A stretch of 64,000 bases of DNA from Actinotalea soli (GTDB taxonomy: Bacteria > Actinomycetota > Actinomycetes > Actinomycetales > Cellulomonadaceae). The position numbers were made by a program, and so were the translations under genes. Positions 634 to 48,433 of this stretch are shown one piece after another; within the stretch, counting starts at the first letter, position 1; each line of letters opens with the position of its first letter. The stretch covers positions 186,001 through 250,000 of the forward strand of contig NZ_JAGEMK010000004.1 of the NCBI RefSeq assembly GCF_017565425.1. Reading direction: 5' to 3'. Below the pieces are notes generated by a model that did not search any database, was not told the DNA's origin, and saw only the letters and a program-made list of their open reading frames with translations.

Positions 634-761
634 CGCAGGAGACCTCCGATCGACAACGCCGTCGACGTGACCGGGAACGGGCTCGGCCGAGGGCAGACAG
701 ACAGCAACGGGGCTGATCCGTCCAGATGATCGCCCCCCGATGCACAGATGGGGACACACTC

Positions 762-1841
762 ATGCCGATCACGACCCATGACCACGCCCGCTGGACGCTC
801 AGAGGAGCGTTCATGCTGGTGCTCGCCCTGGCCGTCAGCATGGTCGCCGGGATCTCCGGTGCGCAGGCCTCCGCTCACCAGCAGGGTCCGCCCCCGTCGG
901 GCTGCCTCGCCCTGACCGGAGACACCGGCTCCACCACACCGGTGGACGACCCGGTGCACGACCCCGCGATCTTCAAGGACCCGTCCACGCAGACGTACTA
1001 CGTCGCCTCGACGGGCATCCTGCAGTCGCCCGAGGACCCGGGCGGCATCTACCTGCGCCGTTCCGTGGGCTCCTTGGTGGGCCCCTGGGAGTCGCTGGGT
1101 GCGCTGCCGGTGCCCGAGTGGGCGCTCGAGTACGACTCGAACCACCTCTGGGCGCCGGACATCGTGCGCACCGGCGACACGTTCTGGATGTACTACGCGG
1201 TCTCCCAGCTCGGGACGCAGAACTCGGCCATCGGCGTGATGTCGACCACGACGCCCGCCGACCTCGCCAGCTGGCAGGACCACGGCCCGGTGTTCACCTC
1301 GGAGCCCGGGGACCCCTACAACGCGATCGACCCGCAGGTGCTCAAGGACCGGGGCACCTGGTACCTGGCCTTCGGGTCGTGGTGGGAGGGCATCCACCTC
1401 GTCGAGCTGACGGACATGACGTCGGTCACCGGTGAGCCGGTGCAGCTGGCGGAGGTGACCGGGGCCCCGTCGCTCGAGGCGCCCACGATCGTCGTCCGGC
1501 AGGGCAGCTACTACCTGTTCACCTCGCGCGGCTTCATCGTCAGCGACAGCTACCACGTCCAGGTGGGTCGCTCCACGAGCCTCACGGGCCCGTACGTCGA
1601 CCGTGACGGCGTGCCGCTCCTCGAGGGCGGCGGGACCGTCGTGCTCGAGACCGAGGGTGGGGCCGGCGGCCAGGACGTCATCAAGGACCGGGGCCGCTAC
1701 TACATGGTCAACCACGTCTACGAGTGGGAGCCGGACCTCCAGATCCGCCTGCAGATCTGCGAGCTGCAGTGGGACGAGGGCTGGCCGCAGATCCCCGAGG
1801 ACGACGGACCGACGACACCTGGACGGAAGGGACCGCGCTGA
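762..1841 (+). CDS. Secreted glycoside hydrolase family 43 (arabinanase/arabinofuranosidase type)
   Basis: A 359-residue predicted secreted five-bladed beta-propeller hydrolase. An N-terminal signal peptide (two arginines, then a hydrophobic stretch ending near GAQASA) precedes the GH43 core. The catalytic base Asp is in the segment DPVHDPAIFKD, a pKa-modulating Asp lies in NAIDPQVL, and the acid Glu is in LEAPTIVV. GH43 enzymes commonly cut alpha-L-arabinan, arabinoxylan or xylosides; the exact substrate cannot be read here. ATG 762 keeps charged residues before the hydrophobic core. ATG 813 has a better Shine-Dalgarno (AGAGGAG) but would leave no charged n-region, and ATG 726 is a third option. 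A methyltransferase gene follows after 4 bp. Confidence 0.85.
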   Translation: MPITTHDHARWTLRGAFMLVLALAVSMVAGISGAQASAHQQGPPPSGCLALTGDTGSTTPVDDPVHDPAIFKDPSTQTYYVASTGILQSPEDPGGIYLRRSVGSLVGPWESLGALPVPEWALEYDSNHLWAPDIVRTGDTFWMYYAVSQLGTQNSAIGVMSTTTPADLASWQDHGPVFTSEPGDPYNAIDPQVLKDRGTWYLAFGSWWEGIHLVELTDMTSVTGEPVQLAEVTGAPSLEAPTIVVRQGSYYLFTSRGFIVSDSYHVQVGRSTSLTGPYVDRDGVPLLEGGGTVVLETEGGAGGQDVIKDRGRYYMVNHVYEWEPDLQIRLQICELQWDEGWPQIPEDDGPTTPGRKGPR

Positions 1842-4371: not shown

Positions 4372-5721
4372 TCAGCCGCCGAGGACGGCCTCGATCTGCT
4401 GGTCGATGCGCTCCCCGGCCTCTGCGGCGGTGCTCTCGCCCCGCCACACGGCGTCGAGCTCACGGACGGCGATCTCGTCGACGGTCTCGGACCACTGCGG
4501 GTGGAACGGCAGCGGCTCGACCCGGTTCGTCAACGAGTCGAGGTAGACCGCCGCGTTGTCCTCCGACTCCCCCTCGAGCAGCCAGGACGGCCCGTCCTCG
4601 ACGAGGGACTCGAGCACCGGCAGGCCGAGGCCCGTCGGCGAGTTGATCCGCTGGCCTTCCTCGCTCACCACGAACTTCACGAACTCCCAGGCGGCGTCCT
4701 TGTTCTGGGAGTTCTCGGGGACGGCGAGCGTGACGAAGAGGCTGGTGGTCTTGCCCTCCTCGAGCGAAGGCATCGGCGCCACGCCCCACTCGTCCTCGAG
4801 GTCCCGGATGAAGAAGGCGTTCCAGCGCCCGTTGAGCTGCATGGCCAGCCGACCGCTCAGGAACAGGTCGGTGCCGTTGAGGCCCATCTCGGCGAACGCG
4901 TCGGGGCTCGGCGCGACGGCGGGCTCGGTGAGCCACAGGTCGGCGATGGCCTGGACCGCCTCAGCCGTGGCCGGGTCGGCGTACGTCGATGCGGTGCGGT
5001 CCTCGTTGAAGAGCGTGCCGCCGTTGGAGTAGACGGTCGGCATGTACGTCGTCCAGCCGGCGCCGTAGTCGATGCCGTACTGACGGACCTGGTTGCCCTC
5101 ACGGACCGTCAGCTGCTCGGCCGCGGTCCGCATCTCCTCCCACGTCCAGTCGTCGGACGGGTACTCCACCCCGGCCTCGTCGAAGAGGCGCTTGTTGTAG
5201 TAGACCATCATCGGCGTGTTGTCCTTGGGGAAGGCGAACATCTCGTTCTCGGGCGTCACCAACGGCTGGACGGTCCCGTCGATGTAGGCCTCGAGGTCGA
5301 CACCGTCCCGCTCGATGTACGGCATGAGGTCCTCGAGCACCCCGCGCTGACCGAAGCTTGACACCAGTGCCTCCCCGACGTAGAAGACGTCGGGAGCGTT
5401 GCCCCCGGCGATCTGCGTCAGCATGTTGGCGCCGAAGGCGCCCGCGTCCGAGACGTGGTCGAGCTCGACGGTGATCTCGGGATGCTCCGCCTCGAACGCT
5501 GCCTTGAGCTGCTCCTGGACCTCGACCTCCTCGGGCACCCCCCAGAAGGCGTAGCGGATCGTGGTCTCCCCACCGGCGGCGGCGCCGTCACCCGTGCCAC
5601 TCGGCTCGTCGTCACCGCCTGAGCAGGCGGCGAGGACGGTGACTGCCAGGACGGCGCCGACGGTGCCTGCGGCGATGCGCCGCGTGAAGGGGGTGCGAGG
5701 GCGTGCTCTGTAGATGCTCAT
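4372..5721 (-). CDS. Sugar ABC transporter substrate-binding lipoprotein (CUT1 type)
   Basis: A 449-residue extracellular solute-binding protein, family 1. It has a lipoprotein signal with lipobox LAAC near residue 33 followed by a Gly/Asp-rich linker, then the binding fold (RYAFWGVPEEVEVQEQLKAA at the start of the domain, with the typical GVEYPSDDWTWEEM region in the middle). It captures an oligosaccharide outside the cell and passes it to the two permeases encoded upstream. ATG 5721 has a close GAGGAG. It is the last gene of the leftward operon starting at 9459. No ATPase gene is present, as usual for CUT1 systems that borrow a shared MsmK-type ATPase. Confidence 0.9.
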   Translation of the reverse strand: MSIYRARPRTPFTRRIAAGTVGAVLAVTVLAACSGGDDEPSGTGDGAAAGGETTIRYAFWGVPEEVEVQEQLKAAFEAEHPEITVELDHVSDAGAFGANMLTQIAGGNAPDVFYVGEALVSSFGQRGVLEDLMPYIERDGVDLEAYIDGTVQPLVTPENEMFAFPKDNTPMMVYYNKRLFDEAGVEYPSDDWTWEEMRTAAEQLTVREGNQVRQYGIDYGAGWTTYMPTVYSNGGTLFNEDRTASTYADPATAEAVQAIADLWLTEPAVAPSPDAFAEMGLNGTDLFLSGRLAMQLNGRWNAFFIRDLEDEWGVAPMPSLEEGKTTSLFVTLAVPENSQNKDAAWEFVKFVVSEEGQRINSPTGLGLPVLESLVEDGPSWLLEGESEDNAAVYLDSLTNRVEPLPFHPQWSETVDEIAVRELDAVWRGESTAAEAGERIDQQIEAVLGG

Positions 5722-5811
5722 GATCTCCTCATCGAGATGTCCGCTCGGGTTGATGGCTGGAGGGCGCGGGGTCGGCGGGCCGCCGGGGAGGCCCGGGTGG
5801 GTGGGGGAGGC

Positions 5812-6693
5812 TCAGGCCTTCATGCCTGAGAGTGCGATGCCCTCGACGAAGTACTTCTGGGCGAAGAGGAACGCGATGAGCATCGGGATCAGCGAGACCA
5901 CGGCACCGGCCATGAGCAGGCTGTGGTCGGTGGCGTAGAGGCCCTGGAAGGTCGCCAGACCGATCGGCAACGTCTTGAGGTCGTTGTCCTGGATGACCAG
6001 CAACGGCCACAGGAAGTCGTTCCAGACCCCCAGGATGTTGAAGACCGCCAGGGTGGCGACAGCCGGCTTGGTGAGCGGCAGGAAGATCTTCCAGAAGATG
6101 CGCAGGGGCCCGCAGCCGTCGATCGTCGCGGCGTCCTCGAGCTCCTGCGGCAAGGTCATGAAGAACTGCCGCATGAGGAACGTCCCGTAGGCGCTGCCGA
6201 AGAACTGCGGCACGATCAGCGCCCAGTAGGTGTTGATCCAGCCGAGCTCACGGATGATCGCGTACGCCGGGACGAGCGTGACCATGAACGGGACCATCAT
6301 GGTGCCGAGGTACAGGACGAACAGCTTGTCCCTGCCCGGGAACTTGAGCCGGGCGAACGCGTACCCGGCGGTGCAGCAGAAGGTGACCTGCCCGAGCGTG
6401 ACCGTCAGGGTCACGAACACCGAGTTGAGCAGCATCCGCGCCATGGGCAGCGCCTCGAAGAGGCGCACGTAGTTCTCCCAGCGCAGCGCTTCGGGCAGCA
6501 AGGACGGCTCGAACGAGAAGATCTCCGTCGAGCTCTTGAGCGAGGTCGAGAGCATCCACAGGAACGGGAGCAGGCAGGCCAGGGCGCCCAGGCTGAGCAG
6601 CACGTAGGCGATCACCCGGGAGACGGTCGAGCGGCGCGGGCGACGCGGCGGGGCCGCGGGGTCCATGGTGTCAGGGCGTACAGAGATCGTCAT
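5812..6693 (-). CDS. Sugar ABC transporter permease, MalG type
   Basis: A 293-residue inner membrane protein with about six membrane segments. The EAA loop that docks the ATPase is visible around EDAATIDGCGPLRIFWKIFL, and the C-terminus ends FVEGIALSGMKA, typical of MalG-like CUT1 permeases. The start follows the MalF-type stop by 4 bp. The 90-bp gap to the binding-protein gene is compatible with one transcript. The substrate is inferred from neighbours to be D-arabinan-derived oligosaccharides. Confidence 0.92.
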   Translation of the reverse strand: MTISVRPDTMDPAAPPRRPRRSTVSRVIAYVLLSLGALACLLPFLWMLSTSLKSSTEIFSFEPSLLPEALRWENYVRLFEALPMARMLLNSVFVTLTVTLGQVTFCCTAGYAFARLKFPGRDKLFVLYLGTMMVPFMVTLVPAYAIIRELGWINTYWALIVPQFFGSAYGTFLMRQFFMTLPQELEDAATIDGCGPLRIFWKIFLPLTKPAVATLAVFNILGVWNDFLWPLLVIQDNDLKTLPIGLATFQGLYATDHSLLMAGAVVSLIPMLIAFLFAQKYFVEGIALSGMKA

Positions 6694-6697
6694 CGCG

Positions 6698-7657
6698 TCA
6701 TCCCATCTCGTACTGGACGCGTCGGCCGATGAACCGCATCTGGATCAACGTGGCGACGAAGAGGATCACGAACAGGAGCCACGCCATGGCAGACGCGTAG
6801 CCCATGCGGAAGAACTCGAAGGCGTTCTGCCAGAGCCAGTAGTAGTAGACGCGGCTCGCGTCACCGGGCCCGCCGCCCGTCATGATGTAGACGACGTCGA
6901 ACACCTGGAACGAGCCGATGATCGACATGACGGTGACGAAGAACATCGTCGGGGTGAGCAGGGGCAGCGTGACGTTCCGGAACTGCTGCCAGGCGTTCGC
7001 GCCGTCCAGCTCGGCCGCCTCGTAGAGGTGCCGGGGGATCGCACGAAGACCCGCCAGGAAGAGCACCATGTTGTAGCCCATGGACTTCCAGACCATGACC
7101 AGCACGAGTGACGGGAGCACGAGGTCGGGGTCGGTCAGCCAGTTCTGCCCCGGGATGCCGATGCTCTCGAGGAACTGGTTCAGGAGGCCGAACTCGGAGT
7201 TGTAGACCCACCGCCAGACCATCGCCACGGCGACCATGGAGGCGATGACCGGCAGGAAGAACGCCGCCCGGAAGATGTTGATGCCGCGCAGCTTGCGGTT
7301 CAGCGCGAGGGCCAGGCCCAGGGAGGCGGCGATGCCGAGGGGGATGCTCATCAGGGCCAGTGCGGCGGTGTTGCGCAGCGAGACCCACAGCTGCGCGTCG
7401 CCGGCCATGCGCTGGTAGTTGTCCAGCCCGACGAACTCGGGGTCGCTGACCATGTCCCAGCTCGTGAAGCTGAGCCCCAGCGAGATGACGATCGGCAGCA
7501 GCAGGAAGGCCGCGATGCCCAGGAAGTTCGGCGCGATGAACGCGTACCCCCAGAACGCCTGACGGCGCCGTCCGCGGTGCCGCCAGGTGCCGCGGATGGC
7601 CTTGGCCGGTGCCGGCGCGCTGGGCGCGACGGACGGCGGCTCGGTGACCTGTGTCAT
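6698..7657 (-). CDS. Sugar ABC transporter permease, MalF type
   Basis: A 319-residue permease with an N-terminal basic stretch (WRHRGRRRQAFWGYAF), about six membrane segments and the EAA loop YEAAELDGANAWQQFRNVTL. The ATG at 7657 overlaps the stop of the upstream DUF4185-type gene by 4 bp (ATGA), so translation is probably coupled. It pairs with the MalG-type protein downstream. Confidence 0.92.
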   Translation of the reverse strand: MTQVTEPPSVAPSAPAPAKAIRGTWRHRGRRRQAFWGYAFIAPNFLGIAAFLLLPIVISLGLSFTSWDMVSDPEFVGLDNYQRMAGDAQLWVSLRNTAALALMSIPLGIAASLGLALALNRKLRGINIFRAAFFLPVIASMVAVAMVWRWVYNSEFGLLNQFLESIGIPGQNWLTDPDLVLPSLVLVMVWKSMGYNMVLFLAGLRAIPRHLYEAAELDGANAWQQFRNVTLPLLTPTMFFVTVMSIIGSFQVFDVVYIMTGGGPGDASRVYYYWLWQNAFEFFRMGYASAMAWLLFVILFVATLIQMRFIGRRVQYEMG

Positions 7658-9459
7658 CGGAGATGCACCTCGAGCTCGGCGACGGTGGTGAAGGACTGGG
7701 CTCCGCCCGGCTCGCCGACGAGGCGGATCCCGTCCCCGACGACGTCGGGGAAGCTGAACGTGTAGCGGTCGCCCGCCGTGGCCGGGCCGGAGCCGTACCC
7801 GGGGCTGACGGAGACTTCGTCGACCGGCTGCCACCGTCCGTCGCGGCGGACCTCGACGGTCGGCTCGGCGACGAACCGGCCCCCGCGCGAGTCCGCCTCG
7901 CCGTGCACGAGCGTGACCTCGTTGACCCGGTGGGCGGAGGGCCAGGTGAGGCCCCAGACGTCCGTCGTCTTCGGCGTGCGGTTGTTGCTGTCTGCCACGG
8001 TCGTGAGCTCGCCGTCGTGGATGGCCCCGGCGAGCCCGAGGCGCGCGTGGGTCACGAGAGGCACGGCGCCGTCCTCCAGCGCCAGGTTGCGGGTCGCGTC
8101 GGGCGCGTTCTGGGCGGGGGCGTCACCACGCGGCTCGATCACCAGCCGGCGCAGAGCCAGGCGGTAGGTGTTCTCCGGCACGCTCGGGGCACCGACGAAC
8201 CAGTTGCTCTGCGCCCACATGGTCCGTCCGTCAGCGCTGATGAACTTGGAGGGGACGACGACGCCGTACCCGCCGTGCACCCCGCCGTCCTGACCGGTGC
8301 CGGTCCAGGGGTAGGGCCCGAAGTCCTCTTGCGCGAGGTGCTCCCACGGCCCCCACGCGTTCGGTGCCTCGTAGATCTCCCAGGTGTACTCGGTCCACGA
8401 GGTGTAGAGGTACCGGTCGAGGCCCGGGTTGTACACCACGCTGCCCTGCGAGAGCACGCTCATGTCCGCGGCCCCGCTCACGGCCAGGCCCTCGTAGACC
8501 CGTCGGCTGTCGCTCAGCACCGGGGTGCGGTCCTCGATCGATGTGCTCCAGCGCGGGCCGTCGTCCCCCGCCCCGGCGAAGAACTCCCACGTGGCACGGT
8601 CCTGGACCGAGGCGGCCGGGACGCGGGCCAGAAAGAGGTCCGTGGGATCCGTGACGGTGTCGCTGAAGGAGTCTCGCCAGTTGTGGTCGAGCCCGTAGGC
8701 GTAGACGTATCCCTCGCCGCCCGCCTCCACCAGCGAGGCGTGCGCGTTGCTCTGGCCGAGGTCGAGGAACATGATCGTGGTGAACACGTGCCCGTCGAAC
8801 ATGGGGGCCTCGCGGTCCCAGTGCCACGTCCTGCCGTAGTCGTCGGACCGGACGATCGTCGCGGCCGGCGCCTCGTCGAAGGCCTGGGTGTCGGGCTTCT
8901 TCCGCAGGTCCTGCACCGCGAGGTACAGCTCGTCCCGCCCGTCCCCGTCTCCGTCGACCGCGACGATGCCGGTGGGCTTCCGGTTGAACAGCACCGTGTC
9001 GGACCAGATCGGCCCGACGACGGCCCCCTCGGCGAGCCTCTCGCCGGTCAGGCCCGTCTCGGGGTCACCGTCGACCCGGTTGACCACGATGTCGGACCAG
9101 GGCAGGTCAGAGAACCCGGTTCCGTCACCGTTCGCGGTGTACAGCGCGCCGTCGTCGGCCCACGTCATGGGCCACAGGTCGCCGTCGCTCTCGGTGAGCA
9201 CGGTCGTCCTGGGCTCGACGCGGACGGTCGCGGCGAAGGTGCTGCCGAAGGCCTCCACGGTCTGGGCTCCTTCCGTCGTGGGGGCGGCGCCGTCCTGGGG
9301 GGCCCCCGCGTCGCACGCGGCGAGGAGCGCGACGGTCGTGGCCGCGGCCAGCGAGGCGACGGCGCCTCGCGGTGCGCGTCGGACGCCGGTGGCGGTGGCG
9401 GTCTCACGCCGGTCCGGGAAGGCCTGCGATGCGCCGTCCACCACGGTGTGCCCGGGCAT
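7654..9459 (-). CDS. DUF4185-like (GH183-type) surface lipoprotein, candidate endo-D-arabinanase
   Basis: A 601-residue lipoprotein: lipobox LLAAC with Cys about residue 49, a beta-propeller domain (about 60-440), then a discoidin-like carbohydrate-binding module. The propeller carries DGDLWPMTWADDGALYTANG, RKPTGI, LYLAVQDL, DDYGRTW and PNAWGPW. These resemble DUF4185, whose members were reported as endo-D-arabinanases (GH183); this assignment is by eye. A related paralogue lies at 15204. ATG 9459 is chosen for its AGAGGAGG. It is the first gene of the operon with the importer. The promoter TTGACA-18-TACCTT is followed by an AATCGATT operator. I infer that it cuts polysaccharide at the cell surface for import. 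DUF5005-type or other propellers remain alternatives. Confidence 0.7.
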   Translation of the reverse strand: MPGHTVVDGASQAFPDRRETATATGVRRAPRGAVASLAAATTVALLAACDAGAPQDGAAPTTEGAQTVEAFGSTFAATVRVEPRTTVLTESDGDLWPMTWADDGALYTANGDGTGFSDLPWSDIVVNRVDGDPETGLTGERLAEGAVVGPIWSDTVLFNRKPTGIVAVDGDGDGRDELYLAVQDLRKKPDTQAFDEAPAATIVRSDDYGRTWHWDREAPMFDGHVFTTIMFLDLGQSNAHASLVEAGGEGYVYAYGLDHNWRDSFSDTVTDPTDLFLARVPAASVQDRATWEFFAGAGDDGPRWSTSIEDRTPVLSDSRRVYEGLAVSGAADMSVLSQGSVVYNPGLDRYLYTSWTEYTWEIYEAPNAWGPWEHLAQEDFGPYPWTGTGQDGGVHGGYGVVVPSKFISADGRTMWAQSNWFVGAPSVPENTYRLALRRLVIEPRGDAPAQNAPDATRNLALEDGAVPLVTHARLGLAGAIHDGELTTVADSNNRTPKTTDVWGLTWPSAHRVNEVTLVHGEADSRGGRFVAEPTVEVRRDGRWQPVDEVSVSPGYGSGPATAGDRYTFSFPDVVGDGIRLVGEPGGAQSFTTVAELEVHLR

Positions 9460-9483
9460 GACCACCCTCCTCTCAGCGTCGAG

Positions 9484-9527
9484 AAATCGATTGCAGTAAG
9501 GTAGGTACTGCCGCGCGGGTCTGTCAA
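9484..9527 (-). promoter_or_regulatory. Promoter and LacI operator of the importer operon
   Basis: On the minus strand, a -35 TTGACA (9522-9527), 18-bp spacer and -10 TACCTT (9498-9503) are followed directly by the palindromic operator AATCGATT (9485-9492, extended site 9484-9493). The operator sits where transcription starts, a classic repression position. The same arrangement occurs before the gene at 15204. Confidence 0.65.
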
Positions 9528-9588
9528 CAGGTCCGGCGCGGTCGACCTCGTCGGGGGGTCGTACGACGACACGAAGGAGTTTCGTTCC

Positions 9589-10704
9589 ATGGACCACGGA
9601 CTCAGCTCGACGGCGCTGTCGGCGCTCCGACGCGTGCGGACCCGGTCGATCAGCCCCGAGAACTTCGACGGCTCGGTCGGCGGTGGCGGCAGGGCCACCG
9701 AGGGGACCGGCGCGGAGTCAGCACGCGATCTCGGACCGGGGTGGAAGATCTCCCCCAGCGTCGACGTCGCACCGGGCGAGACCTTCGACCTGGCCCGCAT
9801 CGACGAGCCGGGGAAGATCACGCACATCTGGATCACCACGCACACCGACCACTGGCGCACCCTGGTGCTGCGGGCGTACTGGGACGGGTCCGCCGAGCCG
9901 GCGATCGAGGCTCCGTACGGCGACGTCTTCTGCAGCGGGTGGGGCAGGTTCGCGCAGGTGAGCTCTCAGCTCGTCGCAGCGAACCCGCAGGGCGGCTTCA
10001 ACTCGTACTGGCCCATGCCGTTCCGCCGCAGTGCGCACCTGACGATCGAGAACACCTCGACCGTGACCGTGCGGGTCTACTACCAGATCACCTACGAGGT
10101 GGGCGGGGACTACTCCGACGAGGGCTACCTGCACGCCCAGTGGCGTCGCAGCAACCCGCTCGAGGACCGCACGCCGCACACCATCCTCGAGGGCGTCGAA
10201 GGCGCCGGGCACTACGTCGGCACGTACATCGCGTGGGGCGTGAACTCCCCCGGCTGGTGGGGCGAGGGCGAGATCAAGTTCTTCATGGACGACGACGAGG
10301 AGTTCCCCACGATCTGCGGCACGGGCACCGAGGACTACTTCGGCGGGGCCTGGAACTTCGACGTGCCCGGGGCGGGCTACACCGAGTTCACGACGCCCTA
10401 CCTGGGGATGCCTCAGGTGATCCAGCCCGACGGGCTCTACGACAGCCAGCAGCGCTTCGGCATGTACCGCTGGCACGTGGCGGACCCGATCGTCTTCGGC
10501 GAACGGCTGCGGGTGACCATCCAGGCCCTGGGGTGGCGCAGCGGGTGGCGCTACCTCCCGCTGCGGGACGACATCGCGTCGACCGCGTGGTTCTACCTCG
10601 ACCGGCCCGCCACGCAGCGCCCGCCCGCGCCCACCTTCGACGCCATGGAGGTGCACATCGGCACGGCACCGGTGCCCGACCTCGGCGCGAGCCCGCCGCG
10701 CTGA
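9589..10704 (+). CDS. DUF2961 / GH172 family glycosidase, candidate exo-D-arabinofuranosidase
   Basis: A 371-residue protein matching DUF2961, now GH172. The hallmark ICGTGTEDYFGGAWNF lies about residues 242-257, and the N-terminal GPGWKISPSVDVAPG and HIWITTHTDHWR segments are typical. Characterised GH172 members, from memory, include a difructose-dianhydride-forming alpha-fructofuranosidase and exo-alpha-D-arabinofuranosidases that act with GH183. There is no signal peptide, so it should work in the cytoplasm on imported oligosaccharides. ATG 9589 has AAGGAG upstream. It is divergent from the importer operon and shares its intergenic operator. A strong hairpin terminator follows. The substrate is inference. 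Confidence 0.85.
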   Translation: MDHGLSSTALSALRRVRTRSISPENFDGSVGGGGRATEGTGAESARDLGPGWKISPSVDVAPGETFDLARIDEPGKITHIWITTHTDHWRTLVLRAYWDGSAEPAIEAPYGDVFCSGWGRFAQVSSQLVAANPQGGFNSYWPMPFRRSAHLTIENTSTVTVRVYYQITYEVGGDYSDEGYLHAQWRRSNPLEDRTPHTILEGVEGAGHYVGTYIAWGVNSPGWWGEGEIKFFMDDDEEFPTICGTGTEDYFGGAWNFDVPGAGYTEFTTPYLGMPQVIQPDGLYDSQQRFGMYRWHVADPIVFGERLRVTIQALGWRSGWRYLPLRDDIASTAWFYLDRPATQRPPAPTFDAMEVHIGTAPVPDLGASPPR

Positions 10705-10709
10705 CCCGG

Positions 10710-10742
10710 CGGCGCCGCCCGCAGAGGATGCGGGCGGCGCCG
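10710..10742. terminator. Hairpin terminator between convergent genes
   Basis: A perfect 14-bp GC stem (10710-10723 with 10729-10742) and 5-nt loop lies 5 bp after the GH172 stop. It faces the convergent isomerase gene and probably serves both. Confidence 0.8.
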
Positions 10743-10770
10743 TGCAGGCCGGCTCAGGCCGGCACGGGCC

Positions 10771-12408
10771 TCACAGCTGCACGTCACCGCACAGGTGCAC
10801 CCGGACGCCGAGCCCGTGGAACATCGCCGCCTTCGCCGCGAGCGCACGGTCGGCCGTCTCGGCGTCGGGCGCGTACGCCACCTGGACGTGGTTGGCCTTG
10901 TGCCGGGCCATGAACTGGTCCCGGGTGACGCCGTGGAGCACCGTGTGCATGATCGGCCACTCGGGGTTGGTGGCCTGCCAGCGCCGCTCGGTCTCCTCCT
11001 CGGGCAGCTCGACCGCGCTCGCACGGCCGAGGTCGAGGTGCAGCGTGCCTGCCTCGACGAACACCCGGCTCCAGACCAGCTCCCCGGGCTTCGACACCCC
11101 GCGGATCGTGCTGCCGCCGAGCGGGAAGTACATCGGGTTCTGCCGCCAGCCCTCAGCGCCCGCGTAGCCCCCCACGAGGTGGGACGGCGGCACGGAGCCC
11201 GAGATCTCGTAGACCCAGACGAACCGTCCCTCGTACTCCTCGCCCCACCGCACGTCGTGCAGGGTCGTCGCGGGGTCCAGGCCCATGCTCGTCCACACAC
11301 GGTTGGTCACGAGCGCGTCGACCGCGACCCCCTCGTCGACCTCGTTGAAGTGCGGGAGCGCCTGGCCCTCCCACAGCACCCGGGTCCCGTCGGCGCTGCG
11401 CACCGGCGGCCGCTCCACGTTGTTCAGCAGGCCCTCGGCCAGGTCGCTCGCGGGCGAGAGGTCCTTGAGGCCCTGCTGGTACTGGATCCCCACGGCATCG
11501 AGGCCGAAGGCGTCGGAGATCCGCAGGGCGGCGACGTACATCTTGTACTGCCACCGCAGCTGGTCCTCGGTGAGCTCGCTGGCCTCGTCCGTGCCGGTGC
11601 GGAAGCGCATGCCCCGCGCGCGCAGCCACTCCCCGACCGCGTCGGCCTCGCCGTCCGGCACGCGCTGCATCTCGGCCCAGAGCGCGCTCTGCGAGAGGCG
11701 CTCCTTGAAGATGCCGATCGGGTTGAGGAGCTCGTCGTCGATGATGGCGTTGTACATCCCCATGCAGCCCTCGTCGAAGACCCCGATGATCGCCTTGTCC
11801 GTGATCATCTGGTGGGCGAGCGCCCGGCCCAGCTCGGTCTCGGCGCCCGCCGGGAGCTCGCCCAGCTCACGCACGTGCGACGCGTCGTGCTCAATGCGCC
11901 CGGTGCGCACCCAGGCGGCGAGCCGCTCGCGGAACCAGGCGTCGGTGAAGTCCACGCTCCACAGGGTCGAGTACGGCACCCCCATCTTGGTGAGGCCGGC
12001 GTTGAGGTTCAGCAGCCCCACCAGGCCCGGCGCCTCGCCGACGAAGTTCGCCACGGTGAGGATCGGCCCGCGGTGGGTGCGCAGGCCCGCGAGGACGTGA
12101 TGGCTGTACTGCCAGACCGCCTCCGCCACGACCAGCGGCGCCTCGGGCGGGATCGACCTGAAGGTCTCCAGGCCCATGCGCTGGCTCGAGATGAAGCCGT
12201 GCCCCGTGCTGGGGTCCACCGGGTTGGCCCGTTCGACCTGCCAGCCGAGGTCCGCGAAGGCGGCCGAGAGGTCGGCCTCGAGCCGCTCCTGGATCGGCCA
12301 CCCGACGGCGTTCGCGGACTCGCGCAGGTCGCCGCTCGCGATGAGATACGCGGTGTCCGGCGCTGCCGTCGGGCGCTCCGTGACGTGGGGAAGGGTGTAT
12401 GTGGTCAT
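10771..12408 (-). CDS. L-fucose/D-arabinose isomerase-like protein
   Basis: A 545-residue member of the FucI/AraA isomerase superfamily. Recognisable parts are the Rossmann-like N-terminal half, DKAIIGVFDEGCMGMYNAII, the segment GIQYQQGLKDLSPASDLAEG, the metal/catalytic region PHFNEVDEGVAVDAL (like the Glu/Asp site of FucI), and the late ARHKANHVQV motif corresponding to the FucI ANHG region. Such enzymes open an aldose to a ketose using a divalent metal; FucI also turns D-arabinose into D-ribulose. ATG 12408 has GAGGAC upstream. The FGGY kinase gene lies 34 bp upstream in the same direction. In this context D-arabinose isomerase is the preferred role; L-fucose is the alternative. Confidence 0.8.
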   Translation of the reverse strand: MTTYTLPHVTERPTAAPDTAYLIASGDLRESANAVGWPIQERLEADLSAAFADLGWQVERANPVDPSTGHGFISSQRMGLETFRSIPPEAPLVVAEAVWQYSHHVLAGLRTHRGPILTVANFVGEAPGLVGLLNLNAGLTKMGVPYSTLWSVDFTDAWFRERLAAWVRTGRIEHDASHVRELGELPAGAETELGRALAHQMITDKAIIGVFDEGCMGMYNAIIDDELLNPIGIFKERLSQSALWAEMQRVPDGEADAVGEWLRARGMRFRTGTDEASELTEDQLRWQYKMYVAALRISDAFGLDAVGIQYQQGLKDLSPASDLAEGLLNNVERPPVRSADGTRVLWEGQALPHFNEVDEGVAVDALVTNRVWTSMGLDPATTLHDVRWGEEYEGRFVWVYEISGSVPPSHLVGGYAGAEGWRQNPMYFPLGGSTIRGVSKPGELVWSRVFVEAGTLHLDLGRASAVELPEEETERRWQATNPEWPIMHTVLHGVTRDQFMARHKANHVQVAYAPDAETADRALAAKAAMFHGLGVRVHLCGDVQL

Positions 12409-12442
12409 GCGGGTGTCCTCGTCCTTCGGTCTCGCGGTCGGA

Positions 12443-13918
12443 TCAGGGGGCCGTCAGCTGGAGCCGCGCCAGGCGGTGGCTGATGTCTCGGGTGGCCGGG
12501 TACAGGTCCCGGTACATCTGGTAGAGCTCGTCGTACCGAGCGGCGGCTGAGAGGTCGGGTGCGCGCACCTCGGCCGGGGGGTTCCACGCGGCGATGTCAC
12601 CGACCCCCTGGCTCCGCGCGGCGAGGTGGGCCATGCCGTAGGCGGCGCCGGTCGTGGTCCGCGGCACCACCTGGGGCAGCCCGGTGACGTCCGAGACGAT
12701 CTGCGTCCACAGCCCGCCCCGGGTCCCGCCACCGACGGCGACGACCCGCTCGACCTGGCCGCCCGCAGCGCGGATGGTCTCGACGTTGTGGCGCACCCCG
12801 AAGGCCGTCGCCTCGAGGGCCGCGCGGTAGAGGTCGCCTCGCGTGTGGTCGAGGGTCAGCCCCGCCAGGAGGCCGCGCGCGTGGGGGTCCATCACCGGTG
12901 TCCGCTCCCCGGCGAAGTACGGCAGCATGAGCAGACCGCGCGCCCCGAGCCCAGACTGCGCGGCCTCGGCGACCAGCGTCCCGTGGTCCGCACCACCGGT
13001 CAGGTGCCGCAGCCACGCCGCGATCGCCCCGGAGGTGGCCATGCCCCCGGCCAGGCTCTGCGTCCCGGGGAGCGCGCCGGCCGTGGTCCACAGCGACGGG
13101 CTCCTGAGGGGCTCGAGGACCGTGTGGACGAGGAACATGGTGGTCCCGTACATGAGCATGAGGTCGCCGGGGTTGTGGGCGTCCACGCTGATCGCCTCGG
13201 CCCACGCATCGATCGTCCCGGTCACTACCGGCGTCCCTGCGTGGATGCCGGCCACCGCCTCGTGGGTGGTCCCCGCGACCTCCCCGGCCCACGCGAGCGG
13301 CGGGAGCTCGAGGCCAGGGGCGACCCGTTCCGCCCAGGGCCGGTACCACTCCCCGGCCGCGGCGTCGTACATCGGGGTGCACTGGCTCGCGGAGTGCCGG
13401 TCCAGGACGTACGCCCCGGTGAGCCTGCGGACGAGCCAGGAGGCCGGCATGAAGAGGCGTCGCGCGCGGCGGTAGCTCTCGGGCTCGGCCTCCCGGACCC
13501 ACAGGATCTTCGGACCGGCGGCCTGGCTCGACAGCTGCGAGCCGCAGCGCTCGTGGACCTGGTCGCCGCCGAGGGCCTCCTCGAGGCGGGCGATCTGGTC
13601 CGTGGCGCGCGTGTCGACCCCGTAGAGGACCGCCGGCCGCACCGGCACGTCGTCCTCGTCGGCGAGGAGCACGCACGGCCCCATGCCGCTCACCCCGACC
13701 GCCTCGATGCTCACGTCCCGCGGTGCGGTGAGCTCGGCCGCGATGGCCTGGAACTCGCTCCACCAGACGTCGGGGTCCATCTCGACGTGGCCCGGTCGGG
13801 GCCGGTCCACGTCGTGCTCACGCTGGGCGGCCCGCAGCACACGGCCCTCGGCGTCGACGACCACACCCTTGGTGCTGGACGTCCCCACGTCCACGCCCAT
13901 CCAGGCAGCTTCCGCCAT
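12443..13918 (-). CDS. FGGY-family carbohydrate kinase, candidate D-ribulokinase
   Basis: A 491-residue sugar kinase of the xylulokinase/ribulokinase family. The N-terminal phosphate-1 motif is MGVDVGTSSTKGVVVD. The substrate-side segment GTIDAWAEAISV and the adenosine-binding AVGGGTRGGLWTQIVSDVTG are clear. ATG 13918 is chosen for its GGAGG at proper spacing. It is the first gene of a two-gene operon with the isomerase. The two together would convert an imported aldopentose to ketose 5-phosphate for the pentose phosphate pathway. D-ribulose, D-xylulose or L-fuculose are possible substrates; D-ribulose fits the neighbours. Confidence 0.85.
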   Translation of the reverse strand: MAEAAWMGVDVGTSSTKGVVVDAEGRVLRAAQREHDVDRPRPGHVEMDPDVWWSEFQAIAAELTAPRDVSIEAVGVSGMGPCVLLADEDDVPVRPAVLYGVDTRATDQIARLEEALGGDQVHERCGSQLSSQAAGPKILWVREAEPESYRRARRLFMPASWLVRRLTGAYVLDRHSASQCTPMYDAAAGEWYRPWAERVAPGLELPPLAWAGEVAGTTHEAVAGIHAGTPVVTGTIDAWAEAISVDAHNPGDLMLMYGTTMFLVHTVLEPLRSPSLWTTAGALPGTQSLAGGMATSGAIAAWLRHLTGGADHGTLVAEAAQSGLGARGLLMLPYFAGERTPVMDPHARGLLAGLTLDHTRGDLYRAALEATAFGVRHNVETIRAAGGQVERVVAVGGGTRGGLWTQIVSDVTGLPQVVPRTTTGAAYGMAHLAARSQGVGDIAAWNPPAEVRAPDLSAAARYDELYQMYRDLYPATRDISHRLARLQLTAP

Positions 13919-13947
13919 CGATCCTCCTCGATCGCCATGAGACGACG

Positions 13948-13975
13948 AGAATACAGTAATCGATTTCAGTGACAA
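13948..13975 (-). promoter_or_regulatory. Kinase-isomerase promoter with LacI operator between -35 and -10
   Basis: On the minus strand, -35 TTGTCA (13970-13975) and -10 TATTCT (13948-13953) are spaced 16 bp. The operator AATCGATT (13958-13965) lies in the spacer, so bound repressor would block RNA polymerase. The flanks match the other two operators (CAATCGATTTC-like). Confidence 0.65.
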
Positions 13976-14020
13976 CCGGCCGAAGCCGTCGGGCTGCGCT
14001 CGAGGGTCTGGCCGGGCGCC

Positions 14021-14983
14021 TCAGGCGCGAATCTTGGTCTCCACGACGACCGTGCGGGACGCACCCTCGGCACCCTTGATGCGGGCCAGGAGGAGCGAGG
14101 CCGCGGCCGAGCCGAGCTCGCGCGCCGGCGTCTCGATGATGACGATCCCCGCCGGCACGATAGGCGCGAAGGCGAGGTCGCCGAAGACCGCCATCCCGAA
14201 GTCCGGGGGCGTCATGCCCCGGCTGGCCATGGCCTGGAGGGCACCGACGGCCATGAGGCTGTTGCCGACGACGACCGCGTCGGGCGGGTCGGCGCCGTCA
14301 AGCTGTGCCCGCATCGCCTCGCGGCCCGAGTCCATCCGGAAGTCCCCGTGCTCGAGCAGCCCGGCGGGGTCGCGCCCCGCAGTCAGGGTTGCTGCGCGCC
14401 AGCCGTCGGCGCGCTGGCTCGCGGTCTCGACGTCCTCGGGGCCGGTGATGCAGGCGATGCGCCGGAACCCGCGTTCGACGAGCACCGTGGTCGCGTCGAG
14501 CGCGGCCCGGTGGTTGTCCATGATGACGGTGTCGAGGTCCTGGTCGACGTGACGGTCGATCGCGACGACGGCGCGTCCGGCCTTGAGCAGCGGGCTGACG
14601 TCGCTCGTCGAGGAGGCCGGCGCGAGCAGGGCGCCGGCCATGTGCTCCGCGACCGCGAGGTCGAAGTACTCGCGCTCGCGCACCGGGTCGTCGTCGGTGT
14701 TGCACAGCACCACGGCGTAGCCGTCCTCGCGCGCTCGGTCCTGGACCCCGCGCGCGAGGGAGGTGAAGAACGGGTTCTCGATGTCGGGGATGATCAGGGC
14801 GATCACGTCGGCGTGCTGCAGGCGCAGGGAGCGCGCGGTACGGCTCGGCTGGTAGCCGAGCTCCTCAGCCGCGGCGCGGACGAGCTCGCCGTAGGGCTCG
14901 CGGACCTTCTTGCCGTTGAGCACGCGCGAGACGGTGGCGGCGGAGACGCCCGCGCGGGACGCCACGTCGTAGATGGTCACCAT
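14021..14983 (-). CDS. LacI-family repressor of the D-arabinan-like regulon
   Basis: A 320-residue LacI/GalR protein. The HTH is TIYDVASRAGVSAATVSRVL followed by the hinge; the ligand-binding domain runs from about residue 60 (ADVIALIIPDIENPFFTSLA) to the end. The chosen ATG 14983 sits directly before the HTH, with GGGAGAG upstream. It lies between the kinase promoter and the promoter of the gene at 15204, both of which carry AATCGATT operators, so it is the natural candidate to bind all three sites. The inducer is unknown, presumably a sugar released by the pathway. Confidence 0.88.
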   Translation of the reverse strand: MVTIYDVASRAGVSAATVSRVLNGKKVREPYGELVRAAAEELGYQPSRTARSLRLQHADVIALIIPDIENPFFTSLARGVQDRAREDGYAVVLCNTDDDPVREREYFDLAVAEHMAGALLAPASSTSDVSPLLKAGRAVVAIDRHVDQDLDTVIMDNHRAALDATTVLVERGFRRIACITGPEDVETASQRADGWRAATLTAGRDPAGLLEHGDFRMDSGREAMRAQLDGADPPDAVVVGNSLMAVGALQAMASRGMTPPDFGMAVFGDLAFAPIVPAGIVIIETPARELGSAAASLLLARIKGAEGASRTVVVETKIRA

Positions 14984-15141
14984 CGAATCTCTCCCGTACG
15001 TTGCGCCGCGAGCTGCTGCGACGCGCTCCGTGCGGGCAGCGTAGCCCCCGCCGTGCCGCCCCCGAGCCGCGGCCCGTGCGTCGACGTCGGCGGCGTGACG
15101 GCCCGGCGCCACAGCGCTCAGCAGTGGTCGACCCGAGGCTC

Positions 15142-15185
15142 TTGACCTGGTTGGTCCGGACAGCCTAGCGTCCCAGCAATCGATT
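15142..15185 (+). promoter_or_regulatory. Promoter and LacI operator of the second DUF4185-like gene
   Basis: TTGACC (15142-15147), an 18-bp spacer and TAGCGT (15166-15171) form a sigma-70-like promoter. The operator AATCGATT (15178-15185) starts 6 bp after the -10 element. This matches the geometry before the importer operon almost base for base. Confidence 0.65.
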
Positions 15186-15203
15186 TCACGACGGGAGACA
15201 ACG

Positions 15204-17300
15204 ATGTCCGCAGTCATGAGAGCAGTGCGAGGATCCACGATCGCCGGCCTGGTGCTCGCGCTCGGCACGACCCTGGGCGGGGCCGCCCCCGGCGCTCCCC
15301 AGGGCGCGGGCACACCGGAGGGGCACCCGGCCCCGAGCACCTGGGGCGGAACGGTCGAGATGGACCCGGACGTTCGCCACACCTCGGCGAGCGACGGCGA
15401 CCTCTGGCCCTCGTGCTGGGCCGACGACGGAAACCTCTACAGCGCCTGGGGCGACGGGAAGGGGTTCGACCTCGCGGGCCCGTTCACCGACATCGGCGTC
15501 GCGCGGCTGAGCGGCCCGGCCGACGACATCCAGGGCGTCAACCTCGCGGTGGGCGACGAGGTCGGCCAGGTCTGGAGCGGCCCGGGCCACACCCGCAAGC
15601 CCACCGGCATGGTGTGCGTCGAGGACACGATCCACCTCGCCGTGCAGGACCTCGCCTGGAACTTCGACGCCGCACCGGCCGCGACGATCGCGACCTCGAC
15701 GGATGGCGGGGAGACGTGGACCTGGGACACCTCGGGCCCGATGTTCGACGACGGCGTGTTCACGACGATGTGGTTCGCCGACCACGGCCAGGGCGGTGAG
15801 TGGTCCGAGGACGGCTACGTCTACGTCTACGGGATCGACCAGAACTGGCGCGACTCGTTCTCCGGGCGGGTCGAGGACCCGACGAGCGTCTACCTCGCCC
15901 GCGTGCCGCAGGACAAGGTCGGCGACCGCTCCAGGTGGCGCTTCTACGCCGGGACCGCGGGCACCAAGGGCAAGCCCAAGTGGTCCAAGAAGGTCGGTGA
16001 CCGCGAGCCGGTCCTGCACGACGAGCGACGGGTCTACCCCGACGTGTTCGAGCCGTGGATGGCGCACGACATGACCACCCTGTCCCAGGGGCACGTGCTC
16101 TACAACGAACCGCTCGACCGATACCTGTACTCGTCCTGGACCGAGTTCACCCTGCACCTGTACGACTCCCCCACCCCCTGGGGGCCGTGGACGCGGCTGT
16201 CGGACCACGACTTCGGTGCCTACCCGTGGACGGGCGAGCAGTACGCAGGCTACGGCGCGACCCTGCCGTCGAAGTTCCTCTCCGAGGACGGCCGTACGAT
16301 GATGCTCCAGGCCAACGTGTGCCCCTGCGCACCCACCGGTGGGGTCTCGGTCTACAACTACGCCGTGCGTCAGCTGACCCTCGCCCCGTCCACCGACACC
16401 CCCGCGGCCAACGCCCTCGGGGACGAGAACCTCGCGATGGGCCACGGGGCGGTCGCGATCTCGAAGTCCGTCAACCAGGGCAGCCTCGATGCCCTCAACG
16501 ACGGCGCGACCGACGTCAGCCTCGACGACTCCGACGAGGAGCTCAAGCGTGACTCGTGGTGGGGGTACACCTGGCCGCAGGACATGAACCTCAACCGGGT
16601 CCAGTACACGACCGGTGAGGTCGGCGACCTGGGTGGCTGGTTCCTCAACGAGCCCCGTGTGCAGGTGCGCCGGGACGGCACGTGGACGGAGGTCGCGGGG
16701 CAGAAGATCAGCCCGCGCTTCGTCAACGGCAAGGCAGGCGGCTCTTTCCAGACGTACACCGTGAGCTTCCCCCCGGTGGTCGCGGACGGGGTGCGCGTCA
16801 TCGGCACGCCCGGCGGGGACCGCACCTTCTCGTCGATGGCTGAGATGTCCGCCCACTACGACCTCCAGGTGGTCGACGGCGGCTTCGAGGAGACATGGAG
16901 CCTCGAGGTCTCACCGTGGGACTTCGAGGGTGACTCCCCGCGCGGGCTCGACGACGGCGGCGCGTTCGCCCGCACCGGCGAGAAGAACGCCTGGGTCCGC
17001 ACCTTCGACCCGATCGGGGCCCAGGCGATCACCCAGCGCGTCGCAGTCACTCCCGGGTCGACGGTGACGATCTCCTCGTGGTCCCGCACCTCCCCTGCGG
17101 TGAGCACGGTGCGCGTCGGGGCACGGTGGGAGGGCGGCGAGCAGATCGAGACCTTCGCGGGCTCTGCCGACTACGCCGAGCGCGCCGTGACGGTGACCGT
17201 GCCGGCAGGGGTCTCCGAGCTCACCCTGCTCGTCGGCTACGAGGCCGAGGGCGGCGACGCCGTCCTCCAGGTCGACGACATCTCACTCACCGCCGAATGA
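15204..17300 (+). CDS. Secreted DUF4185-like protein with extra carbohydrate-binding module, candidate endo-D-arabinanase
   Basis: A 698-residue secreted protein: signal peptide (about 1-30), a beta-propeller domain (about 50-390), a discoidin-like module (about 400-555) and an extra C-terminal beta-sandwich like CBM4/9 (about 560-698, starting VVDGGFEETWSLEVSPWDF). The propeller parallels the lipoprotein encoded at 7654: DGDLWPSCWADDGNLYSAWG, RKPTGM, AVQDLAW, TDGGETW, PTPWGPW. There is no lipobox or sortase signal, so it should be released. ATG 15204 has GGGAG upstream. Control by the 15178 operator ties it to the same regulon. The enzyme activity is inferred from DUF4185/GH183 similarity judged by eye. 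Confidence 0.7.
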   Translation: MSAVMRAVRGSTIAGLVLALGTTLGGAAPGAPQGAGTPEGHPAPSTWGGTVEMDPDVRHTSASDGDLWPSCWADDGNLYSAWGDGKGFDLAGPFTDIGVARLSGPADDIQGVNLAVGDEVGQVWSGPGHTRKPTGMVCVEDTIHLAVQDLAWNFDAAPAATIATSTDGGETWTWDTSGPMFDDGVFTTMWFADHGQGGEWSEDGYVYVYGIDQNWRDSFSGRVEDPTSVYLARVPQDKVGDRSRWRFYAGTAGTKGKPKWSKKVGDREPVLHDERRVYPDVFEPWMAHDMTTLSQGHVLYNEPLDRYLYSSWTEFTLHLYDSPTPWGPWTRLSDHDFGAYPWTGEQYAGYGATLPSKFLSEDGRTMMLQANVCPCAPTGGVSVYNYAVRQLTLAPSTDTPAANALGDENLAMGHGAVAISKSVNQGSLDALNDGATDVSLDDSDEELKRDSWWGYTWPQDMNLNRVQYTTGEVGDLGGWFLNEPRVQVRRDGTWTEVAGQKISPRFVNGKAGGSFQTYTVSFPPVVADGVRVIGTPGGDRTFSSMAEMSAHYDLQVVDGGFEETWSLEVSPWDFEGDSPRGLDDGGAFARTGEKNAWVRTFDPIGAQAITQRVAVTPGSTVTISSWSRTSPAVSTVRVGARWEGGEQIETFAGSADYAERAVTVTVPAGVSELTLLVGYEAEGGDAVLQVDDISLTAE

Positions 17301-37691: not shown

Positions 37692-38423
37692 CAGGGCCGT
37701 CGAGGCGAGGGCGCCGTGGCGCAGGGCAGGGCGTCGAGTGGCGGTGCGCCCGGGGACACCCTGCCGTAGGTGCCGGGCGCCCTGCCGTCGCGGACGGATC
37801 CCCTGACGAAGAGCCCGTCGCCAGAACCCTGCCCCCAGGGCAGATTCGACCTACCGACACGCGCCCTAGTCCTTCCATGTGGCTAGCTTGAGACCCGCTC
37901 ACCTGCGGAAATACACGCGGGTAGTTCGTGCAACACCAATTTGAGGTGTGCTGACCACGCGCTGACTGCGCTGGCCGTCGCCCACCTTCGCAACCTTCCG
38001 TTCAAGGACAGGCGTGCCCCGGGCAATCGAACCTGTCCGGACCCGATGGCGACGAGACCTGCGACGCGCTGACGCGCGGGGACCCTCGCGAGCGTCAGCG
38101 CTCCGGGGGTTCTGGGTGCCGGTACGTTGACAACGCCAACGGGAAGATACGATCTTGGACTGTCCTCGTTCGAGGTGAACGCCGGTAGGGGACCTCCGCG
38201 AAGTGACGCACACCATGATCGATATAGGAGAGACGCTGCGGGGATGCCGCTCGACTGACACGCCAGCAGCCGGAACTCACATGATGCACTTCAGGAGCTG
38301 CCGTCGGGAGCGCATGTGCCTCGCTCAGCGCGTAGTCCAACGACACAGGCCCTGGCCTCGATACGGTACGTATGCCCGCGCATCGCTTCAAACGACTAGA
38401 CAGTGGCAAGATCGAGGTTCTCC
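37692..38423. other. Gene-free boundary region at the left edge of the island
   Basis: About 730 bp in which base composition drops from the strongly GC-biased chromosome. It contains the Arg-rich leader of the lipoprotein frame, a repeat (37950-37966) that recurs near the right side of the island, a weak inverted repeat GGACAGG/CCTGTCC (38006-38038), a TTGACA (38127) without a well-spaced -10, and an ATACG-gta-CGTAT inverted repeat (38361-38373) 50 bp before the ParB-like gene. No protein gene is seen. Confidence 0.5.
37950..37966. repeat. Left copy of 17-bp direct repeat flanking the island
   Basis: GCTGACCACGCGCTGAC matches 16 of 17 bases with 47226-47242. The two copies bracket the low-GC, mobile-element-rich segment. 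It could be a recombination site or a chance repeat. Confidence 0.35.
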
Positions 38424-42234: not shown

Positions 42235-42598
42235 CGTCGTGCAGCGGGTAACCCTTGTACGTTCCCTGAATTGAGTTAACTAGTCGAGCTTCGAACCAAG
42301 TACCGTCTTGCTGACCCCAAACATATCGCGGAAACCCGGCGTCGGCGGGATCCTCACTAACGTTCCCGGCAAGAACGGCGTCGCGCAACCAACTGTTGAT
42401 CAGCGCCTGGTCGTGCAAGTGTTTCGGGCAGCGGCTCGCGTCCGAACGCAGCCGAGGCGGACCGGCGAACGAAGGATAGGACTTGTGTTCGGGTGATCCG
42501 ACGTATGCGACCGCGCTGGCGCAGTCCTCCAACGCGCGCTGGTCGACACCCTCCGCAACGCTGCGGGGGAGAGGGCGGCGTCTGCTTGGCGCTCTCAT
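42206..42598 (-). CDS. Small protein of unknown function in the island module
   Basis: A 130-residue protein with ordered, conserved-looking segments: YVGSPEHKSYPSFAGPPRLR, DASRCPKHLHDQALINSWLR, and FPRYVWGQQDGTWFEARLVN followed by QGTYKGYPL. I believe I have seen similar uncharacterised actinobacterial proteins but know no function. It contains a possible His/Cys cluster. ATG 42598 opens the operon and the 3' end overlaps the ImmA-like gene. Confidence 0.65.
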   Translation of the reverse strand: MRAPSRRRPLPRSVAEGVDQRALEDCASAVAYVGSPEHKSYPSFAGPPRLRSDASRCPKHLHDQALINSWLRDAVLAGNVSEDPADAGFPRYVWGQQDGTWFEARLVNSIQGTYKGYPLHDDEAPRLSHG

Positions 42599-44233: not shown

Positions 44234-44240
44234 CGGCTGA
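43048..44240 (+). pseudogene. IS3-family transposase OrfA/OrfB, multiple frameshifts
   Basis: OrfA starts at GTG 43048 (PKKLPPEFKRDIVRAARRGD then VASDFDISVESVRRWVRQAD, an HTH). Its leucine-zipper segment EKRRLEQENKILRRAAAYFA follows in another frame after an in-frame stop. OrfB continues EGIP..., LEDTYLTNALIHAHSDDPEF and the first catalytic Asp region QVWVTDITEHPTGEA; after another shift near 43755 come IKDLFSNRIVGYAIDERMTA, VVVHSDRGSQFRA (second Asp) and the final Glu region NAAMESWNALLNRRRW. At least three frameshifts make it inactive. Confidence 0.85.
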
Positions 44241-44249
44241 CCGTAGACA

Positions 44250-48426: not shown

Positions 48427-48433
48427 CACCCTG

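Follow-up and report, generated by a model that had tools for sequence, protein, structure and literature searches.

The subject of this analysis is a window of 64,000 nucleotides from Actinotalea soli (contig NZ_JAGEMK010000004.1, positions 186,001 to 250,000 of the forward strand), the genome of which comprises 3.63 Mb in 32 contigs and is rated 100% complete. Window positions 4372-17300 hold nine genes coding for two DUF4185 proteins (named here DUF4185-A and DUF4185-B), one GH172 glycoside hydrolase, three CUT1 importer components, an isomerase, a kinase and a LacI regulator, which together would make up a locus for the use of D-arabinan. This rare sugar polymer belongs to mycobacterial cell walls, and the enzymes that cut it are tools to dissect those walls. 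The features of the locus are the following (window coordinates):

4372..5721, minus strand: CUT1 solute-binding lipoprotein (PF01547, 145.6 bits; lipobox TVLAAC, by eye)
5812..6693, minus strand: CUT1 permease (PF00528, 73.3 bits)
6698..7657, minus strand: CUT1 permease, the upstream one (PF00528, 63.5 bits; start refined to 7657)
7654..9459, minus strand: DUF4185-A, predicted surface lipoprotein with a propeller and a C-terminal sandwich domain (PF13810, 48.2 bits; start refined)
9483..9494, minus strand: operator 1, between DUF4185-A (24 nucleotides) and GH172 (95 nucleotides) (motif scan)
9589..10704, plus strand: GH172 (DUF2961), apparent ExoMA1 orthologue without signal-like N-terminus (8ic8 match; GTGTEDYFGGAWNFD motif)
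10771..12408, minus strand: FucI-fold isomerase, proposed to convert D-arabinose to D-ribulose (PF02952 at cut-off; predicted fold)
12443..13918, minus strand: FGGY kinase, proposed D-ribulokinase (PF00370/PF02782; start refined to 13918)
13956..13967, plus strand: operator 2, 38 nucleotides upstream of the kinase, heading the kinase-isomerase unit (motif scan)
14021..14983, minus strand: LacI-family regulator (PF00356/PF00532; start refined to 14983)
15176..15187, plus strand: operator 3, 17 nucleotides upstream of DUF4185-B (motif scan)
15204..17300, plus strand: DUF4185-B, predicted secreted protein with a propeller, a sandwich domain (from its alignment to DUF4185-A) and a C-terminal module (PF13810, 48.6 bits)

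A first unit runs on the minus strand from DUF4185-A through both permeases to the binding protein (9459 down to 4372), and the GH172 gene diverges from it on the plus strand. A second unit, also on the minus strand, contains the kinase and isomerase genes (13918 down to 10771), the LacI gene stands apart (14983 down to 14021, minus strand) and DUF4185-B is read on the plus strand from 15204. The starts of DUF4185-A (9459), the kinase, the LacI gene and the upstream permease were set by hand from the start codon, the upstream sequence and the lipobox. A G+C-rich (guanine and cytosine) inverted repeat at 10705-10745, where the GH172 and isomerase genes converge, is a possible terminator. An earlier note on this DNA had named the same genes, and a Pfam scan confirms their families (DUF2961 with 299 bits; SBP_bac_1, two BPD_transp_1, FGGY_N/C and LacI were all matched); in NCBIfam, the DUF4185, GH172 and isomerase proteins match no family. 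Read by eye, the N-termini agree with the locations given there, an enzyme without signal for GH172 and surface or secreted proteins for the DUF4185 pair: a lipobox is visible in the binding protein and in DUF4185-A, DUF4185-B has a signal-like N-terminus without lipobox and no signal-like sequence is seen in GH172.

The operators shared by these units, also a claim of the earlier note, are real. The near-palindrome GYAATCGATTTC, with at most one mismatch, has three sites in the window for 0.09 expected (100 shuffles). Across the 3.63 Mb of the genome, its exact form is confined to these three sites, each of which precedes a transcription unit of the locus, and the reversed-pattern control has no exact site there. 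A looser 14-mer, allowing at most one mismatch, is found in the same three places only, its reversed control matching once per strand. The genes of the locus are one regulon sharing operators, and the local LacI protein would be the one to bind these sites. The motif was also studied in 40 related neighbourhoods, 12 of them chosen for a DUF4185-A match and 28 for a GH172 match among the best from 71 genomes; these 71 are the genomes with a GH172 match among 396 sampled from the order, the closest of the other proteins being 75-80% identical. The GHAATCGATTDC form has at least one site in 28 of the 40 neighbourhoods (58 sites overall), none in 20 Markov shuffles and a single one in 15 control loci (281 kb, mostly from other phyla). 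Among the 12 neighbourhoods without it, one (L103) is a contig-end piece and 11 share the family label f11; ten of these 11 carry less strict variants, AAACGTTT and AATCGTTT among them, the chance rate of which was not estimated. The motif is also present in L110, L112 and L115, three loci that resemble by gene order the one described in Microbacterium arabinogalactanolyticum (see below). It offers a simple marker for locating such loci.

GH172 gives an indication of the substrate. In a sequence search of the PDB, this protein matches ExoMA1 (8ic8) along its whole length (E = 1.4e-208) and three other entries, alphaFFase1 (7v1v), 8ah3 and 4kq7, with E-values from 3e-36 to 9.8e-32. Its GTGTEDYFGGAWNFD motif keeps an asparagine at the position of Asn253 of ExoMA1 (GGAWNFD in the window versus HAWGMQ in alphaFFase1), the residue that excludes fructofuranose (PMC10509167). 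The catalytic-region motifs and the absence of a signal-like N-terminus are likewise common to both proteins, and no difference appears among the features examined. Judged by its sequence, the window GH172 is an ExoMA1 orthologue from the D-arabinofuranosidase subgroup and, since it has the fructose-excluding asparagine, D-arabinan or its oligosaccharides are the best reading of the substrate. Among the related loci, an additional GH172 paralogue has an alanine at the selecting position (L111, 57-1178; L114, 15-1157; L128, 16727-17788) and a more distant GH172 group (L097, L100, L128-L130, L132 and L133) has a cysteine.

The earlier note had assigned the enzymes to GH172 and GH183; DUF2961/GH172 and PF13810 (cut-off 39.5) are indeed matched above their cut-offs, but the DUF4185 pair falls outside the canonical GH183 branch. 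A tree built from 58 catalytic domains places 16 canonical rows on one side (support 100/100) and the window pair in a branch of 19 (97/85), the neighbours of which are 23 proteins from Verrucomicrobiota, Planctomycetota and elsewhere; EndoMA1 is the sole characterised enzyme in this tree and was placed via an orthologue. On this basis the pair belongs to a branch separate from canonical GH183. The branch alignment (A1) retained 19 of 22 candidates, the frames in L099 (overlong) and L129 (wrong) and the short copy in L107 having been dropped. L003 was left out for its broken frames, and further weak DUF4185 hits beyond the fetched stretches were set aside. The canonical alignment (A2) retained 16 of the 26 frames inside these stretches, the other 10 being overlong calls. 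In the adjoining sister group (L004-L027; Verrucomicrobiota, Planctomycetota, Poribacteria and others), most members have a SDNWPM / YGDG motif, 22 of 23 rows have neither glutamate nor glutamine in the third-carboxylate column and most are devoid of the substrate arginine.

At the active site, the nucleophile Asp33, the acid/base Asp51 and the substrate arginine are kept in 19/19 branch and 16/16 canonical rows, with the same spacing of 18 between both aspartates (Asp51 was paired by hhalign; Asp33 lies beyond the hhalign range and was paired by MAFFT only). In contrast, the position of the third carboxylate, paired by hhalign with Glu243 of EndoMA1, holds a glutamine in all 19 branch rows and a glutamate in all 16 canonical ones. 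In DUF4185-A the glutamine is Gln384 and the arginine Arg308; Glu243 of EndoMA1 contacts Arg198. The glutamate count was taken from A2, as this column is shifted by two in three of the 16 canonical rows (L115:13570, L120 and L102) of the larger MAFFT alignment. In EndoMA1, E243A and E243Q nearly abolish the activity (PMC10509167), while the corresponding change in DgGH4185b of Dysgonomonas gadei is reported to have broadly left activity (PMC10115798).

The predicted structure of DUF4185-A (mean predicted local distance difference test, pLDDT, 77.8; residues 1-116 under 50) has EndoMA1 as its best match (Z 29.4 against 22.4 for the entry that follows; 283 residues aligned with a root-mean-square deviation of 2.8). 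The lower matches, from 19.9 down, are mostly GH43 enzymes and were not taken as a functional indication. CBM32 modules are also among its Foldseek matches (matched range not shown), and its C-terminal 168 residues match no Pfam family. The C-terminal module of DUF4185-B resembles the arabinan-binding module of EndoMA1: across 120 residues it shares 33% identity with the one in an EndoMA1 orthologue. The window pair thus has in common with EndoMA1 (8hhv, 8ic1) the fold (from the DUF4185-A model), the two catalytic aspartates, the arginine and, in DUF4185-B, the EndoMA1-type module, and differs from it in the glutamine, the additional C-terminal sandwich domain and the separate position in the tree; AraH2 of M. 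tuberculosis (8an0) is similar by fold. No phage match was obtained for the branch; the canonical DUF4185 protein L115:13570-14670 matches 35 phage records.

The enzymes proposed for the sugar released are also recognised through their folds and families. The isomerase reaches Fucose_iso_C (PF02952) with 29.3 bits, exactly at the cut-off. Its model (mean pLDDT 88.3) has L-fucose isomerases as best matches (Foldseek E = 1.5e-20, TM-score 0.50, 16% identity); the fourth match is a D-arabinose isomerase, and L-arabinose isomerases (AraA) follow from rank 9. FucI-type enzymes accept L-fucose and D-arabinose alike. Its counterparts in 12 related loci share 68-74% identity with it (the isomerase alignment includes 13 of the 14 rows chosen). 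D-arabinose is proposed as its substrate and D-ribulose as that of the FGGY kinase.

No PF04685 match, the profile used for GH116, was found in the whole genome, which extends the absence of this family already remarked for the window, and neither is any canonical GH183 detectable genome-wide; a profile search of the genome found no DUF4185 proteins beyond DUF4185-A and DUF4185-B. The PF04685 search can see GH116, because it matches 24 of the 40 related genomes, seven of which have the match within the locus as fetched (L105, L106, L107, L110, L112, L113 and L115). Since none of the 13 genomes examined with the label f11 has GH116, loci devoid of it are not unusual. The presence of the DUF4185-A/B branch alone is unusual. 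If canonical DUF4185 is counted as a PF13810 match of at least 100 bits, it occurs in 33 of the 40 related genomes and in 18 of the 19 other branch-bearing genomes (12 from the DUF4185 search and seven more from the neighbourhood survey), the exception being G704 and the match in G667 being only partial (121 bits); the window genome has the branch without it. The branch was also considered as a replacement for GH116 and this was ruled out, as 17 of these 19 genomes have a PF04685 match somewhere. PF13810 has no match at all in five of the 40 genomes (G561, G377, G525, G356 and G474), four of which keep GH172 and the isomerase together (L116, L118, L123 and L125), so that loci living on ready-made fragments probably exist.

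The conservation of the locus was studied in the same 40 neighbourhoods. GH172 (at least 60% identity) and the isomerase (at least 68%) are found together in 21 of them, eight of which also have a kinase and a LacI gene. Within its own taxonomic family, DUF4185-A has matches at E ≤ 0.001 in 12 of 221 genomes, its own included; the other 11 are short stretches with E-values from 2.5e-5 to 7.9e-4, and the protein has no real counterpart in the 220 other genomes. Among 18 other genomes of the genus, the right-flank protein was clear in two and the left-flank protein in one (plus a 52-residue fragment in another), never both, and no empty insertion site could be demonstrated. Outside the family, a metagenome-assembled genome from Acidimicrobiaceae has a relative of DUF4185-A, 57% identical across broken frames, and a plasmid of Haloprofundus halobius (NZ_CP083667.1; L140) encodes a 46% identical DUF4185 protein with the same two aspartates, arginine and glutamine. 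The haloarchaeal gene is beside a GH172 gene, an ABC importer, an SDR dehydrogenase and a RhaM mutarotase (L140, 1735-24000), with an amidohydrolase weakly similar to fuconolactonase (47 bits for a cut-off of 400) and enolase-family dehydratases below every named cut-off. We infer that this cluster may process D-arabinose or a similar sugar by a non-phosphorylative pathway. If so, the branch would serve D-arabinofuranose glycans beyond mycobacterial walls; the parallel is weakened, because the haloarchaeal GH172 has a cysteine instead of an asparagine at the selecting position.

The best explanation for these observations, at a probability of roughly 0.8, is a utilisation locus for D-arabinan or D-arabino-oligosaccharides under a single regulator. 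As read from the observed genes, folds, residues, operators and conservation, the two exported DUF4185 propellers, one anchored to lipid (A) and the other secreted with a module of the arabinan-binding type (B), would act on the glycan outside the cell by cutting or trimming it, and the CUT1 importer would take up the oligosaccharides. The cytoplasmic GH172 would then remove alpha-D-arabinofuranose, the FucI-fold enzyme would convert it to D-ribulose and the FGGY kinase would produce D-ribulose-5-phosphate. The LacI protein would repress the three promoter regions that bear operators (the DUF4185-A-importer unit together with GH172, the kinase-isomerase unit and DUF4185-B), a repression presumably lifted by D-arabinose or an oligosaccharide. 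The pathway of cutting, import, trimming, isomerisation and phosphorylation put forward in the earlier note is upheld as such by homology, residues, regulon and gene content, but not its qualification as complete, given the absence of GH116 and canonical GH183 and the glutamine of the DUF4185 branch.

Several observations weigh against this interpretation. The genome has neither canonical GH183 nor GH116, the branch has a glutamine where EndoMA1 has an essential glutamate, and its usual co-occurrence with canonical DUF4185 suggests an accessory role. Neither DUF4185-A nor DUF4185-B matches EndoMA1 in a single-sequence search of the PDB, one branch member (L110:10525-11721) remains below the PF13810 cut-off with 37.8 bits, and the haloarchaeal member has no PF13810 match at 1e-4. 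The isomerase has no sequence match to solved structures, either as a single sequence or as a profile, the kinase is closest to XylB, below the corresponding cut-off (304.8 bits for 380.25), and the binding protein shows little conservation from one locus to another (22-33%). Finally, the control loci used for the operator, mostly from other phyla, are a weak control.

The most delicate question is what the DUF4185 pair does. If the glutamine branch is endo-acting, the cell would open the intact polymer by itself; this seems slightly more plausible than the contrary and is the least certain point of the proposed pathway. The pair could instead only trim or bind the glycan, the cell living on oligosaccharides freed by the GH183 enzymes of other bacteria, a scenario that is nested within a D-arabinan locus, so that the odds of both overlap. 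The missing GH183 and GH116, the company of canonical DUF4185 in 18 of 19 genomes, the glutamine at the position of the essential glutamate and the existence of similar loci devoid of DUF4185 (the five genomes mentioned above, four with GH172 and the isomerase) speak for such a scavenger. Nevertheless, the retention of both aspartates and the arginine in all 19 rows, the endo-enzyme EndoMA1 as best fold match and the maintenance of two divergent exported copies, each preceded by an operator, make it the less probable option, if one to be taken seriously. It can also be suggested, tentatively, that the glutamine-type branch consists of functionally distinct D-arabinan-active enzymes, specific for another linkage, a branch point or a chain end and acting without the third carboxylate, and that this organism runs its D-arabinan locus on them alone. 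The genome is in any case a natural test of the branch acting by itself, either in cutting the polymer or in serving a fragment scavenger.

Other substrates are much less probable than D-arabinan. The relationship of GH172 to alphaFFase1 (E = 3e-36) might evoke alpha-fructans of the difructose-anhydride type; yet the match to ExoMA1 is far stronger, the fructose-blocking asparagine is kept where alphaFFase1 has a glycine (PMC10509167), and an aldose-isomerase-type enzyme would be needless for fructose, all of which renders this the least credible option. Scarcely more credible is the use of plant L-arabinan. A secreted-looking GH43 protein is encoded 2.5 kb away, at window 726-1841, and AbnA is its best equivalog, below the cut-off (174.6 bits for 480); nevertheless, its gene has no operator of the locus, the kinase reaches only 119 bits to L-ribulokinase (cut-off 583), and the characterised relatives of GH172 and DUF4185 act on D-arabinofuranose (PMC10509167, PMC10115798). 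A pathway for L-fucose or another deoxy-sugar is similarly improbable: the latitude of FucI-type enzymes and the L-fucose isomerase as best match of the model would allow it, but the ten proteins scanned include no fucosidase or aldolase, the kinase has 68.9 bits to L-fuculokinase (cut-off 470.9) and GH172 belongs by sequence to the D-arabinofuranosidase subgroup.

As a D-arabinan locus, the system is not new in kind. The earlier note had presented it as a scavenging system in a non-mycobacterium; such loci have already been published for other non-mycobacteria (PMC10509167, PMC10115798). The locus MIAR_33170-33320 of Microbacterium arabinogalactanolyticum follows the same plan, with an ExoMA1-type GH172, an importer, an isomerase, a kinase and DUF4185 proteins, the exo-enzymes inside and the endo-enzymes outside; D-arabinose and an extract of mycobacterial cell walls are reported to induce its genes, and the authors describe clusters in other Actinobacteria and leave MIAR_33220 and MIAR_33320 uncharacterised (PMC10509167). 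The window genome differs from it in having neither GH116 nor canonical DUF4185, only two DUF4185 proteins of the other branch. That branch is probably the one of MIAR_33220, an assignment made from gene order and size in L110 and not from the MIAR_33220 sequence. PUL42 of Dysgonomonas gadei similarly brings together DUF2961/GH172, DUF4185 and a predicted fucose isomerase, in a polysaccharide utilisation locus of the Bacteroidota type (PMC10115798). A search of the open-licence literature by title and abstract found no other characterisation of DUF4185 enzymes, and a literature search on the regulation of D-arabinan loci turned up no paper. This analysis adds the operator, the glutamine branch and the occurrence of this branch without canonical DUF4185 in one genome. 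Found beside GH172 in many of the examined loci, the branch appears uncharacterised in the literature considered.

Elsewhere in the window, two adjacent genes at 38403-40810 match the phage-defence models PD-Lambda-5_A (768.5 bits) and PD-Lambda-5_B (358.8 bits). They lie within a stretch of lower G+C content (61-67% at 38-48 kb). At 42493-48506 there is a match to a transposase helix-turn-helix and a short one to an integrase, not far from a tRNA-Arg (cct) gene (48433-48506), which suggests a mobile or defence island in this low-G+C stretch.

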